Positions 19,459 through 29,879 of a stretch of DNA of 64,000 nt are shown here, in pieces. How positions within the stretch are numbered: position 1 is the stretch's first letter; each line of letters starts with the position of its first letter. Source of the DNA: Desulfosporosinus nitroreducens (GTDB taxonomy: Bacteria > Bacillota > Desulfitobacteriia > Desulfitobacteriales > Desulfitobacteriaceae). The position numbers were made by a program, and so were the translations under genes. Under the pieces are notes generated by a model. That model did not search any database and had not been told where the DNA came from. It saw nothing but the letters and a program-made list of their open reading frames with translations. The DNA lies in assembly GCF_023897015.1 (NCBI RefSeq), contig NZ_JAMHFY010000001.1:62001-126000 (forward strand). The letters are read 5' to 3'.

Positions 19459-19830
19459 TTAGAACTCACACAGTTCCTTCAATGATTCAACTTCCGGATG
19501 TTCTATGGTACAATCTAGGTGAGAATTTTCCTTTTCAGCTTCCGTTGGCGCGGGAGCTTTTTTCATGAGCAAATTTATAAGCGTTTCGCCGTTGTAGTCG
19601 ATAAAATGAAGCTCACTATCATCATCGATGGCCGGAGCCCCGCGATACTCCATCCCCGGGAATACTTTCCGCAGAAAGGTATCTATCCCAAATAGCTCAA
19701 CATCAGGCTTAGAAATAATCGTCACGCGCATCAGACCATTGCTATGGAAGTCAACACTGGCTTGTGATATTAAGGGATCATCCATGAGGTTTTGAACATC
19801 TGAGAGTTGAGAGGGTGTTAGTTTCTTCAT
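19459..19830 (-). CDS. Hypothetical phage protein
   Basis: 123 aa. Begins M-K-K-L-T-P-S-Q-L-S-D-V-Q; the middle is beta-rich and the C-terminus acidic. Not recognised. Its ATG overlaps the stop of the Spo0A-C-like gene (ATGA at 19827-19830). Confidence 0.6.
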   Translation of the reverse strand: MKKLTPSQLSDVQNLMDDPLISQASVDFHSNGLMRVTIISKPDVELFGIDTFLRKVFPGMEYRGAPAIDDDSELHFIDYNGETLINLLMKKAPAPTEAEKENSHLDCTIEHPEVESLKELCEF

Positions 19831-26885: not shown

Positions 26886-27149
26886 CTAAACGTCTCTCTC
26901 CCTCGCGATTTTTACTCCACAGAATGGGCAAAACTCAGGAGTTATCGTGTAATTCCTCCGGCACTTCGTTTCCTTGCCACGCTTACTTATCGTTCGATAA
27001 TCAACGATCGTGGGAATGTACAAGGGGAATTCGCTCCCAATAAGAAGGTTTTCAAAGTGGCATCTTGGATCGATAACATCAACTTGGGACACATCTTTTT
27101 TAAATAGATCAAAGACGCTTTGTTGGACTTGCTCTATACACTCACACAT
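26886..27149 (-). CDS. Hypothetical phage protein with C-terminal Cys pair
   Basis: 87 aa. C-E-C at the start and F-C-P-F-C-G-V-K at the end, a rubredoxin-like knuckle common in phage ORFs. Its ATG overlaps the TAA of the antirepressor gene (TAATG). Function unknown. Confidence 0.6.
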   Translation of the reverse strand: MCECIEQVQQSVFDLFKKDVSQVDVIDPRCHFENLLIGSEFPLYIPTIVDYRTISKRGKETKCRRNYTITPEFCPFCGVKIARERDV

Positions 27150-27925
27150 TAGGCGCTCGCCTTTCTTTCATCCTTAAGCTTATTAACAAAGTAAATCTGC
27201 CCTTTCCCGGTTACCTTTGTTGTAGTTGTTGCCCTCACGCTTCCATCAGGGTTATTGATAGTTCGCTTCTTTATCTCGAATAATCCAAGTTCCATGCTGT
27301 ATTGAGTTGGTTGGTTATAGTTCTCACCTTTCTTGATTAAGTACCCATCTTTCCTGAGCTTTTCAAATAGCCGGTTCTGCCCAATCTCGATTCCGTTTTG
27401 CCTAAGTATTTTTGCAAGTTCTCCAATAAGGATGGTGTTATTTGAGACTTCCAGAGCTTCAGCAAAGATAACCTTTGGACGTTGTGCTTCAAGTTGTAGT
27501 GTTAGGGATTGTCTTTCTTCTGCTTCGATTATCCATGCTTTAGCTCTGGCAATGGGGTCATCAATCATATAGGAGTCTTTGGACTGGATATCCTTGATTC
27601 GGTAATACTCGTCCACTAACATTTCGTAGGCTTCCCATGCTTTGTCAGTGTTGAGGGATTTGGCGTGGAGCCACGCTCCTTTTTCTGTCCAGAGGTAGAG
27701 ACTGGATGCAAATTTAAGGCTATCGGGAATTTTCGTATACCCTTCCTTGAATCTTGCCAAATCCTCACCCATCAATTTGAAGAAGTGCTTTCCCTCGGTA
27801 TACCTTGCTGAGTTGTTAATGTAGTTTTCTGAAATATGCTTATTGTCTGTACCGTAAGCATCAGCTAGTTGAGTACTAGGCAATATTCTTTGGCCTTTAT
27901 GTTCGATTGGAATTAAGTTGCTCAT
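27149..27925 (-). CDS. Phage antirepressor, ORF6N + KilAC/ANT domains
   Basis: 258 aa from ATG 27925 (AAGGAGG 5 nt upstream). N-terminal ORF6N domain: I-E-H-K-G-Q-R-I-L-P-S-T-Q-L-A-D-A-Y-G-T, Y-T-E-G-K-H-F-F-K-L, L-Y-L-W-T-E-K-G-A-W-L-H-A-K-S-L. C-terminal KilAC/ANT domain: I-L-I-G-E-L-A-K-I-L-R-Q-N-G, L-F-E-K-L-R-K-D-G-Y-L-I, T-T-K-V-T-G-K-G-Q-I-Y-F. Such proteins interfere with the CI repressor or promote lytic growth. Confidence 0.9.
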   Translation of the reverse strand: MSNLIPIEHKGQRILPSTQLADAYGTDNKHISENYINNSARYTEGKHFFKLMGEDLARFKEGYTKIPDSLKFASSLYLWTEKGAWLHAKSLNTDKAWEAYEMLVDEYYRIKDIQSKDSYMIDDPIARAKAWIIEAEERQSLTLQLEAQRPKVIFAEALEVSNNTILIGELAKILRQNGIEIGQNRLFEKLRKDGYLIKKGENYNQPTQYSMELGLFEIKKRTINNPDGSVRATTTTKVTGKGQIYFVNKLKDERKASA

Positions 27926-27935
27926 GGTTCCCTCC

Positions 27936-28295
27936 TTATCCCTTATCAAGCTTGTACACAGTAAGTTCAGCCAAGATCTTCAATGATTCCACAATGCTAA
28001 GATTGGGAAGCTCTCTTTTTCTGACCGATTCATTAACCTCATTGAGTAACGCGCCAATGATCGAGTTAAGTTTTTTAGAGTTGGATGAGTCATCAAACCG
28101 GAAGCTTGTCCTTCCCAAGAGATAATCTACGGAAATACTGAAATAATCCGCAACCCTTTGGACCTTATCAACTGCTGGAAATGAGCTATCCCACTTATAA
28201 ATGGACCCACTTCCTAACTCAAGTTCCTTTTCTAACTTGGGAACTGAGACATTATTTTCCTTGCAAATTTGCTTAACATTTTCCAGGAGCGACAT
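27936..28295 (-). CDS. XRE-family regulator
   Basis: 119 aa from ATG 28295 (GGAGG 9 nt upstream). HTH: V-K-Q-I-C-K-E-N-N-V-S-V-P-K-L-E-K-E-L-E-L-G, then I-Y-K-W and V-A-D-Y-F-S-I-S-V-D-Y-L-L-G, typical of XRE phage regulators. The C-terminal part is an unrecognised helical dimer-like region. Precedes the antirepressor, so it may regulate this operon through the repeats at 28347-28366. Confidence 0.85.
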   Translation of the reverse strand: MSLLENVKQICKENNVSVPKLEKELELGSGSIYKWDSSFPAVDKVQRVADYFSISVDYLLGRTSFRFDDSSNSKKLNSIIGALLNEVNESVRKRELPNLSIVESLKILAELTVYKLDKG

Positions 28296-28346
28296 GCATG
28301 ACAACCTCCTTCCCCTTGATAAAATCTACTTTTCTTGAATATTTTC

Positions 28347-28366
28347 GCAAATTTAGCAAATTTAGC
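28347..28366. promoter_or_regulatory. Overlapping GCAAATTTAGC repeats (candidate operator)
   Basis: Two copies of GCAAATTTAGC overlap by two bases, about 50 nt upstream of the XRE gene start and downstream of the putative ncRNA promoter on the other strand. AT-rich and nearly palindromic. A plausible site for the XRE or Cro-like protein; not proven. Confidence 0.4.
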
Positions 28367-28387
28367 TGAAAATTTACAGAAAACATA

Positions 28388-28417
28388 TTGACTAAATGGA
28401 AAATAATAATGTATAAT
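28388..28417 (+). promoter_or_regulatory. Promoter of the putative phage ncRNA
   Basis: TTGACT (28388-28393) and TATAAT (28412-28417) are separated by 18 nt on the plus strand. There is no plus-strand gene downstream until the repressor at 29250, so transcription would run into the structured gene-free segment. Confidence 0.55.
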
Positions 28418-28423
28418 ACGTAC

Positions 28424-28765
28424 ATCAAGTTAAAGACGGGCACGCTTAATAAACCTTTAGAGGTTGTGCGTTTTATAGACAATTGGCGTTGACTATAAAA
28501 AATTAGTCTTTAATTATTGCCTTAAGTCGTTTGGCGACGACTCTGGCTAGAGTGAATTGTTCTTGGTGGAACAAATAATTAGAGCAACGTTGCTCAATCG
28601 GCGTACTTTCGGATTATCAAACCTGGTCCGTTTGATGAACTGGAAGTGCGCCAAGTCAAATTTTTAAAGCAAAAATAATTAGTAAGTTACTAACCCAAAA
28701 ATCCCGGTCTAAGGAATTTTGGGCTAAACTATTGTCCGGCGCAATATATAATGCCCCCTTTTTTT
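28424..28765 (+). ncRNA. Putative structured phage non-coding RNA with repeated UUGGYG hairpin loops
   Basis: A 0.34 kb gene-free segment behind a good promoter and ending at a seven-T run (28759-28765). It is packed with inverted repeats: 28471-28500 (8-bp stem plus 3 bp, loop TTGGCG), 28525-28542 (6 bp, loop TTGGCG), 28557-28574 (6 bp, loop TTGGTG), 28582-28595 (GAGCA/TGCTC), 28616-28636 (7 bp), 28679-28693 (TTAGT/ACTAA) and 28694-28723 (10 bp, one mismatch). Three hairpins with different stems share nearly the same hexaloop, which argues for conserved RNA loops. No known family recognised. Confidence 0.5.
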
Positions 28766-28778
28766 GCCATCTTGTTTA

Positions 28779-29072
28779 CTAACTAGACTTATGTTTGGAT
28801 AGATACTCTTCCAGTGTTGCTCCACTCAACCGATGGGGAAAAAAATAGTGAAGTATTTTGTCAGTATCGATTTCTAGTCGATCTGCAATTGCGTCAACTT
28901 CATTACAATCAAAAATCTGTTCCCCATTGATTTTTCTGCAAAGTGTATTAGGAGCAATATTCAAAGCTTCAGAAATCTTAGCATAGGAGTCTTTCTTTTC
29001 CCTAATCAATCCCTTGATAGCTGTCAACTCACAATACTTTTGATTTCTTGGCGTCGATCTCTTTCTTGGCAT
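28779..29072 (-). CDS. Cro-like XRE regulator
   Basis: 97 aa from ATG 29072 (GGGAGGTG 5 nt upstream). HTH: I-K-G-L-I-R-E-K-K-D-S-Y-A-K-I-S-E-A-L-N-I-A-P-N-T-L-C-R-K-I-N-G, followed by V-D-A-I-A-D-R-L-E-I-D. Divergent from the LexA/CI-like repressor, the position of cro. Presumably controls the lysis-lysogeny switch. Confidence 0.85.
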   Translation of the reverse strand: MPRKRSTPRNQKYCELTAIKGLIREKKDSYAKISEALNIAPNTLCRKINGEQIFDCNEVDAIADRLEIDTDKILHYFFPHRLSGATLEEYLSKHKSS

Positions 29073-29123
29073 AATTTCACCTCCCAATGAATAATTTGTT
29101 TAGTTACGCAACTGCTTAGGTAT

Positions 29124-29249: not shown

Positions 29250-29879
29250 ATGCAAAGCAAAACCTTTGATCAAAACAAGTTCGCCGAAAGGCTAATGCAA
29301 CTAATGTCCGACAATAACGATACTATTTATAGCCTAGCGGAATTCCTCCATTTGAGTCCTTCGGCAATTAGCCGATATACCTCTGCTACCATGACGCCTA
29401 AGATCCTCACTATCGAAGCGATTTCCGCTAAGTATGGCGTTAGTCCTGCATGGTTGATGGGTGCTGATGTGGACAAGTACCCAGAGACTGTCAAGTTATC
29501 TAAGCAAATCCCAGTTATGGGTACGATTGCAGCCGGACAACCCATATTGGCTCGACAGAATATTGAAAGCTTTGAATACGTTCCCGAGGATGCGAATGTA
29601 GATTTCTGCCTTAGGGTCAAGGGAGACAGTATGACTGGAGCAAGGATACTAGATGGTGATGTGGTTTTCATAAGGCAACAACCAGACGTAGAAACCGGAG
29701 AGATAGCAGCTGTTATGATTGATGGTGAGGCAACGCTAAAACGTGTTTACAAAATCAATGGAACCGTTATATTAAGGCCAGAAAATCCTAACTATCAAGA
29801 TCAAGTGTACTCAAAGAAGGATATGAAGGATGTCGTCATATTGGGTAAGGCAATAAGATTTCAGTCGGAGGTGAGATAA
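29250..29879 (+). CDS. LexA/CI-like phage repressor (XRE + S24 peptidase)
   Basis: 209 aa. N-terminal HTH (S-L-A-E-F-L-H-L-S-P-S-A-I-S-R-Y) with Y-G-V-S-P-A-W-L-M-G; cleavage region G-T-I-A-A-G-Q-P (Ala-Gly); catalytic Ser in V-K-G-D-S-M-T-G; catalytic Lys in E-A-T-L-K-R-V-Y. Maintains lysogeny; self-cleavage after RecA activation would induce the phage. The next ORF starts one base after its stop. Confidence 0.95.
   Translation: MQSKTFDQNKFAERLMQLMSDNNDTIYSLAEFLHLSPSAISRYTSATMTPKILTIEAISAKYGVSPAWLMGADVDKYPETVKLSKQIPVMGTIAAGQPILARQNIESFEYVPEDANVDFCLRVKGDSMTGARILDGDVVFIRQQPDVETGEIAAVMIDGEATLKRVYKINGTVILRPENPNYQDQVYSKKDMKDVVILGKAIRFQSEVR

Follow-up and report, generated by a model that had tools for sequence, protein, structure and literature searches.

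What does a 474-nt gap in the immunity region of a prophage encode, and how might its product act? The gap (28305-28778) lies in Desulfosporosinus nitroreducens, within the 64,000-nt stretch that was analysed as a whole and is called the window here (NZ_JAMHFY010000001.1, positions 62,001-126,000); L-numbers denote fetched loci and contigs. On the plus strand the prophage carries an integrase and a CI-like repressor with an S24 peptidase domain (29250-29879). On the minus strand are a Cro-like regulator (28779-29087; its DUF739 match lies just below the cut-off), the XRE-type regulator XRE2 (27936-28304), and an antirepressor (27149-27949) with ORF6N and ANT (KilAC) domains. A second Cro-like gene (L030; G000:C11:36295-36528, minus strand) was located on the same contig approximately 54 kb from the first, with 40% identity over residues 13-90, which suggests a second prophage or remnant.

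The gap and its hairpins

No convincing gene was found between XRE2 and the Cro-like gene; among ORFs of at least 50 amino acids, one on the minus strand (69 aa, 28273-28482) extends into the gap. On the plus strand, divergent from XRE2, is a promoter (TTGACT at 28388-28393, 18 nt, TATAAT at 28412-28417) with 11 of 12 matches to the consensus. From this promoter and a run of seven T (28759-28765), the presumed 3' end, we infer a structured non-coding RNA (ncRNA) of approximately 340 nt at 28424-28765, which would be expressed as a plus-strand transcript; the interval is matched by a covariance model (R2, below) and folds with a z-score of -5.3 against shuffles. Between the divergent ncRNA and XRE2, operator-like repeats (GCAAATTTAGCAAATTTAGC, 28345-28385) were read by eye, and a block containing TTTTTGCAA is seen, also by eye, at the corresponding place in family loci.

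The initial annotation, made from the sequence alone, had described the gap without a gene, the promoter, three hairpins with loops TTGGCG, TTGGCG and TTGGTG, and at least seven inverted repeats. All of these are real, and folding raises the number of hairpins to at least nine. Of its claim that the RNA ends in the seven T, the run itself stands, but the hairpin formed there is weak and a simple terminator scan gave no intrinsic terminator at this point of the plus strand. Its placement of the RNA antisense to the Cro-like gene has to be corrected: the two are convergent and the RNA stops 13 nt before the cro ORF, without overlap.

The 5' domain (28429-28470, from the R2 alignment) comprises the helix-1 strand GTTAAAG and helix 2, with ACC in the loop region; GTTAAAGAC.GGC in this domain is common to the window and L235. 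H2 (28471-28500; 8 bp, an A-A mismatch and 3 bp) has the loop UUGGCG (28483-28488), which recurs in H3 (28525-28542; loop 28531-28536), and both hairpins are insertions relative to the other aligned members. The small H4 (28541-28552) overlaps the foot of H3 and has the loop GGCU, or UGGC counting the closing base. H5 (28557-28574) carries UUGGUG (28563-28568); UGGU is found here in 15/17 aligned members, the exceptions being L174 (UUGGGA) and L183 (UUGACG). H6 (GAGCAACGUUGCUC, 28582-28595) has four of five stem pairs invariant, and the long H7 (28600-28652), with the loop CUGGUCC (28623-28629), shows both-sided changes in 12 of its 20 pairs across the family. The loop of H9 (28694-28723) is CGGUCUAA, its counterpart in the family being CUGGUAA, UGGUAAG or UGGUCAG. 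All of these elements are on the plus strand.

The family order from the 5' end is helix 1 (GUUAAAC), helix 2 (RCC-bearing loop), H4, H5, H6, the long H7 and H9, with a terminator hairpin after H9 in some loci. Where the family has a single H4, the window carries three hairpins, two with UUGGCG and the small one with UGGC. Downstream of H7, a different sequence has taken the place of the family's in L167 and L183. Visual inspection of the 17 distinct family loci listed shows a promoter-like block whose spacing from GTTAAAC hardly varies; L235, too, has such a block, reading TTGACA..TATACT.

GGGC (28438-28441) and GCCC (28753-28756) are predicted to pair over this long range with a probability of 0.81-0.82. 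Helix 1 might alternate with a long-range 5'-3' helix in a conformational switch, for which 9/9 pairs are formed in 6/14 sequences (0-6 of 500 shuffles reach 9/9) and at least 8/9 in 11/14, a value also reached by 38-66 of 500 shuffles. The minus strand folds as well as the plus strand (z -5.6 and -5.3, respectively), so that folding energy alone does not indicate which strand is the RNA.

A narrow RNA family in a fixed place

The relatives of this RNA were missed by nucleotide search and were found through a model of a single sequence together with the neighbouring genes. Among 60 genomes the only match was to the own genome. Of 73 genomes from the same order, 56 gave matches with E allowed up to 1, all but the own short (best E 0.0026), and the loci fetched from them contained no TTGGYG hairpin with at least five pairs. 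Phages and plasmids yielded no homologue (best E 0.4 and 0.3, respectively). Protein searches with the Cro-like regulator in viral contigs, with XRE2 in viral and genome contigs, and in genome contigs with the helix-turn-helix (HTH) gene that adjoins the viral RNAs, offered no route to the family. Among 130 genomes of relatives the Cro-like gene had relatives in 8 (own included) and XRE2 in 51, mostly weak ones; an HTH alignment gave two weak matches there, none in the own genome.

The covariance model R1 was built from window positions 28470-28655 alone and run on 48 of 80 viral loci fetched with the antirepressor, R2 covering the remaining ones. It matched L078 (E 1e-15) and L068/L069 (E 2e-10), in each case immediately upstream of an HTH gene with an antirepressor relative behind it, in L078 with one more gene between. 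It had no match in 17 loci obtained by Cro-like, XRE2 and CI searches in relatives. Searching with the HTH gene led to 19 contigs at first and later to 24 viral contigs; a DNA pattern from the 5' end of the RNA, in which the protein was not used, returned 23, the same set minus L235. R2, built from seven viral sequences with the window excluded, finds the RNA in all 24 HTH contigs and, reciprocally, in the window at 28429-28654 (94.7 bits, E 1.2e-24); the E-values of both models are rough, given the short calibration. No match to R2 was obtained in 82 other antirepressor or CI loci, and in the genomes of relatives R1 and R2 detected the own genome only, apart from one match at E 0.6. The closest CI relatives found, L061 and L062, possess the Cro-like gene and no R2 match, the space from this gene to the next being 15 and 111 nt. 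The contig names assign L235 to metagenome 3300005326 and the other 23 contigs to seven metagenome numbers, with 13 under 3300024999. Within the collections searched, the family is narrow.

For the comparisons below, removal of six duplicates over 200 nt and of L181, which is cut short, reduced the 23 pattern contigs to 16 distinct viral sequences; L162 was omitted from one comparison as a duplicate of L161. Among 18 distinct sequences, changes on both sides were observed in 25/52 pairs and 97.0% of cells were paired, against 27.6-40.3% and 1-5 both-sided pairs in a control with slid partners. A plain MAFFT alignment of the 16 viral sequences, made with no structure fitting, gave 22/51 both-sided pairs and 96.8% paired. 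Read in the plus-strand sense, 923 cells include 114 G-U and 3 C-A (109 and 3 among 872 without L235), an excess which identifies the plus strand as the RNA strand. The early (minus) strand retains only 85% of pairs, and structural selection is therefore mainly on the strand of the ncRNA. By inspection, no ORF is common to the homologues.

The gap thus encodes a real structured RNA with conserved structure, strand, promoter and position. The initial annotation had proposed a new phage ncRNA on the plus strand, which a lack of covariation or a conserved ORF in related phages would have spoken against; the relatives found by structure, the compensatory changes, the G-U bias, the conserved promoter and the lack of a shared ORF support the proposal. 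That it recognised no Rfam family also holds: in the window and in 13 homologue loci no Rfam 15 family reached its gathering score over the ncRNA, and relaxing the limit to E 10 added nothing in the gap but a snoRNA model (18.8 bits, E 2.5). Among the matches listed in a literature search, no description of this RNA was found.

The HTH gene of all 24 viral contigs is immediately preceded by the RNA, encoded on the other strand, an arrangement that the window repeats with XRE2. The order in L171 (CI, cro, ncRNA on the opposite strand, HTH gene, antirepressor) is that of the window, and among contigs with genes listed a small XRE-type gene is present beyond the RNA, in the place of cro, in L068, L078, L170/L171, L184, L185 and L235. 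The gene following the HTH gene varies: in 14 of 15 loci examined it has ORF6N/ANT (1), ORF6N (1), pRha (7), Bro-N (4) or T5orf172 (1) domains, and in the remaining locus, L148, no Pfam domain matched it and the antirepressor relative stands one gene further on. XRE2 replaces the family HTH gene in the window and shows no convincing similarity to it (BLASTP E 0.017 over 34 residues, in a single comparison); the domain make-up of the repressor differs between the window and L171. Since both the HTH gene and the following gene are exchanged, neither is a constant partner of the RNA. The constant features are the RNA and its place, i.e. a structured RNA family stays at the centre of a temperate-phage switch in which the antirepressor is swapped.

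The repeated UGGY loop

Three hexaloop hairpins with one loop, allowing one transition, were obtained in 1 of 3000 dinucleotide shuffles, and across both strands of the 64 kb 5 of 1274 overlapping 345-nt windows reach three such hairpins, probably at this same locus. The repetition of the loop, on which the initial annotation had centred, is a true feature of the family, but UUGGYG is too narrow a description and the common core is UGGY. For the count across the family, 17 RNAs (L235 excluded) were cut at 245 nt, or at 190 nt for L167 and L183 on account of their replaced 3' parts, and each loop was read together with its closing bases. UGGY occurs in 2-4 hairpin loops per RNA in 17/17 RNAs, compared with 0.03-0.20 in shuffles; none of 100 shuffles reaches the observed count in 15 of the RNAs, one does in L167 and two do in L187. 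In H7 UGGU is kept in 17/17 while five of the seven upper-stem pairs change on both sides. It also appears in the H6 loop of 5/17 members; 6/17 have GGA in the H4 loop, and all 17 have RCC, as ACC or GCC, in the helix-2 loop region. Loop size and the register of UGGY vary across the family. We regard the RNA as belonging to the phage switch and as unusual in its repeated loops; the scans made here found no entry for its family in Rfam 15.

L235 departs from this pattern. Its RNA (L235:1736-1906, minus strand) has the window as its nearest relative here (75.5% identity over aligned columns), and none of its predicted loops contains UGGY. H7 of L235 has, on the same seven-pair upper stem, the loop GGACCAG, which is exactly reverse-complementary to CUGGUCC in the window and gives the impression of an inverted apical hairpin. 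As a single sequence it carries little weight, and its RNA may be non-functional.

Several general explanations of the loop were tried and dropped. The YUNR U-turn is not clearly enriched as a unifying rule, since 3-55 of 100 shuffles, per sequence, reach the observed count in the 17 RNAs. Mimicry of an anticodon, in which CUGGUAA would be an anticodon loop with GGU, does not account for the different register of UGGU in H5, the other H9 class and the terminator loops. Nor is a general preference of the host for UUGGYG or UGGY in hairpin loops supported: in 464 kb of genome, window included, UGGY was found in 15 of 756 six-base loops (2.0%; k-mer rate 1.6%) and 22 of 711 seven-base loops (3.1%; k-mer rate 2.1%), although TTGGCG, with three cases (one in the ncRNA, one at window position 19545 and one elsewhere on the contig), ranks with the most frequent six-base loops of this sample. 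A UUGGCG-CGCCAA pseudoknot would be possible in the window only.

Hairpins with the loop TTGGCG and varying stems were also seen at window positions 19505-19570 (plus strand), where the hairpin is opposite a coding end, and in L026 (approximately 760, plus), L027 (approximately 2087, minus), L030 (approximately 24, plus) and L059 (approximately 605, plus). A T run follows those viewed (window, L026, L030 and L059), and a TGGTAYA(A/C)T-like sequence precedes those of the window, L026 and L059. The hairpin looks like an antisense terminator with the same hexaloop. By eye, versions of H4 and H7 appear mixed between contigs L167-L187 as though hairpins were exchanged singly, for example in L180 and L187, which have H4 in common but differ in H7; recombination among the phages of a single community could produce such a mixture.

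Possible action: countertranscript, sponge or self-assembly

A role in the lysis-lysogeny decision would fit the conserved position, and the ncRNA probably controls the adjacent antirepressor gene. The design raises a testable question, namely whether one repeated four-base loop serves RNA-RNA kissing, a protein sponge or self-assembly, and the inverted loop of L235 is a natural experiment for separating the three. Because the RNA runs towards cro from a position between this gene and the HTH-antirepressor genes, any early cro-to-antirepressor transcript must contain its exact complement. Our preferred reading, put forward tentatively and with somewhat less than even confidence, is that the ncRNA is a phage-encoded kissing-loop countertranscript of the early lytic operon, restraining the HTH-antirepressor genes as a pro-lysogeny brake. 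It would be transcribed independently as a multi-hairpin regulatory RNA, and early transcription would read from cro through into the HTH and antirepressor genes. The UGGY loops would make the first kissing contacts with mirror-image RCCA loops of the early transcript, pairing would spread to a duplex that leads to cleavage or a transcription stop, and the antirepressor would be kept low. The conserved structure and strand and the position opposite the HTH gene are consistent with this, as is the reverse-complement loop in H7 of L235. A swap to the complement should be tolerable for a sense-antisense pair and hardly so for a fixed protein, and it suits kissing between RNAs no less well than a sponge.

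There are precedents among plasmids and phages. The title of Asano et al. 1998 (referenced in PMC10724649) names 5'-UUGGCG as the motif in the loop of the ColIb-P9 RNA to which the antisense Inc RNA binds. Kissing in I-complex plasmids starts at nucleotides of the loops (PMC10724649). With the IncIalpha target RNA and its Inc RNA (RNAI) the window RNA shares the UUGGCG hairpin loop, present twice next to one UUGGUG (UGGU in other members), and the countertranscript geometry. This is a likeness of motif and geometry: the plasmid system controls replication through one stem-loop pair, whereas the ncRNA belongs to a phage immunity region, has several hairpins and bears UUGGCG on the short RNA itself. 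Inc-type YUNR U-turn loops are, moreover, not clearly above shuffles in the 17 RNAs. The P22 sar (68/69 nt) and P1 c4 (77 nt) RNAs are described as brakes on antirepressors that pair with ant mRNA (PMC12197685). Like sar and the c4 of P1/P7, the ncRNA is a phage RNA in an antirepressor context, adjoining HTH and antirepressor-type genes and encoded opposite them (relative to the HTH gene in the viral contigs). Unlike them, it is approximately 340 nt long, has no Rfam match and, lying upstream of XRE2/HTH and hence of the antirepressor, overlaps no HTH or antirepressor start site.

Further points weigh against a countertranscript. Cis-antisense pairing needs neither one loop in several hairpins nor an invariant H7 UGGU across phages, features which speak for a constant partner in trans, and the pairs are incompletely kept on the early strand. 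Weak terminator-like sites on that strand (12/18 sequences scanned, mostly 5 pairs, 3 of them G-C) would, if working, stop early transcripts before the HTH gene, and an HTH promoter inside the gap is possible. In L068 (1796-2314) and L184 (1257-1775) a gene that looks HNH-like by eye lies between the cro-like gene and the RNA. The loop-swap argument comes from one sequence, L235, and gene order was read in some contigs only.

The initial annotation had read the repeated loop as a sign of recognition by a protein or RNA, as in sponge RNAs; a multi-site decoy of this kind we regard as possible but unlikely. CsrB and RsmZ are sponges with many hairpins showing one repeated loop motif, GGA, for CsrA. 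Here the UGGY loops would titrate one constant host factor, probably a protein, during the lysis-lysogeny decision. One loop core in several hairpins with unrelated stems recalls CsrB/RsmZ, and the invariant UGGU of H7 above a changing stem, the variable number of hairpins (with two extra UUGGCG hairpins in the window) and the exchange of the neighbouring proteins examined, which makes a phage-encoded partner unlikely, all point the same way. The motif differs, however, CsrB/RsmZ are not phage switch RNAs, and we know of no protein with UGGY-loop specificity. Variable loop size and register also argue against a sponge, as does L235 with the reverse complement in H7. A sponge thus accounts better than a countertranscript for the repetition of the loop and worse for L235.

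Rather improbable is a self-assembling or pseudoknotted RNA, in which the UGGY loops would pair with the RCC of helix 2 in the same or another copy to form a compact fold or a multimer. RCC is found in the helix-2 loop region of every RNA counted, and in the window CGCCAA (28649-28654) is complementary to the UUGGCG loops. Prophage RNAs that multimerise with the help of kissing loops are known: GOLLD and ROOL are ornate prophage- or phage-encoded RNAs in which conserved loops make contacts between copies (PMC12286853). The ncRNA resembles GOLLD, ROOL and OLE in being ornate with conserved loops; these are larger (many GOLLD RNAs exceed 800 nt), and it has no Rfam match to them. Each UGGY-RCC contact would consist of three base pairs only, several UGGY loops would face a single RCC loop, and CGCCAA is not conserved in the family. 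As the GGU side is invariant, covariation of this pairing cannot be shown.

More speculative, and distinctly improbable, is a polyvalent loop-display device with a four-base UGGY-RCCA handshake code. Hairpins added (as in the window), apparently swapped between phages, or inverted (as in L235) would reprogram which RNA is met, be it the countertranscript, another phage's version or tRNA acceptor ends. If this were true, the phage switch would have an RNA-coded, rapidly evolving specificity of immunity. That tRNA ends are the principal target is very improbable. On this reading the UGGU loops would bind uncharged tRNAs by pairing with their RCCA ends, in the manner of the bulge of a T-box, and the phage would sense or sequester tRNA. 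In T-boxes UGGN pairs with NCCA, with wobble allowed at N (PMC7778990), and UGGU in H7, H5 and some H6 loops would suit such pairing. The ncRNA resembles a T-box in using UGGN as a pairing element but would display it in hairpin loops instead of a bulge, on a predicted free-standing transcript; it matches no T-box or other Rfam model, no specifier loop was identified, four-base contacts are weak and L235 is without the motif. That the gap is no RNA gene at all but hairpin-rich DNA (an attachment, operator or origin element) or decayed sequence is hardly credible and already largely refuted: good folding on both strands and absence from the two closest CI relatives found, as in an accessory element, would agree with it, but the compensatory changes, the promoter placed at the RNA start across the family and the G-U excess do not, as a DNA cruciform would not prefer G-T.

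The neighbouring genes have peculiarities of their own. The HTH genes of L078, L068 and L235 have no clear Shine-Dalgarno sequence before the first ATG; AAGGAGG lies just inside and is followed at the usual distance by ATA (L078), ACG (L068) or ATG (L235), so the start codon may be unusual. Beside the early genes of L068 (4136-4828) is encoded a protein with many tandem GDAQVSGNARVFGNAQ-like repeats.
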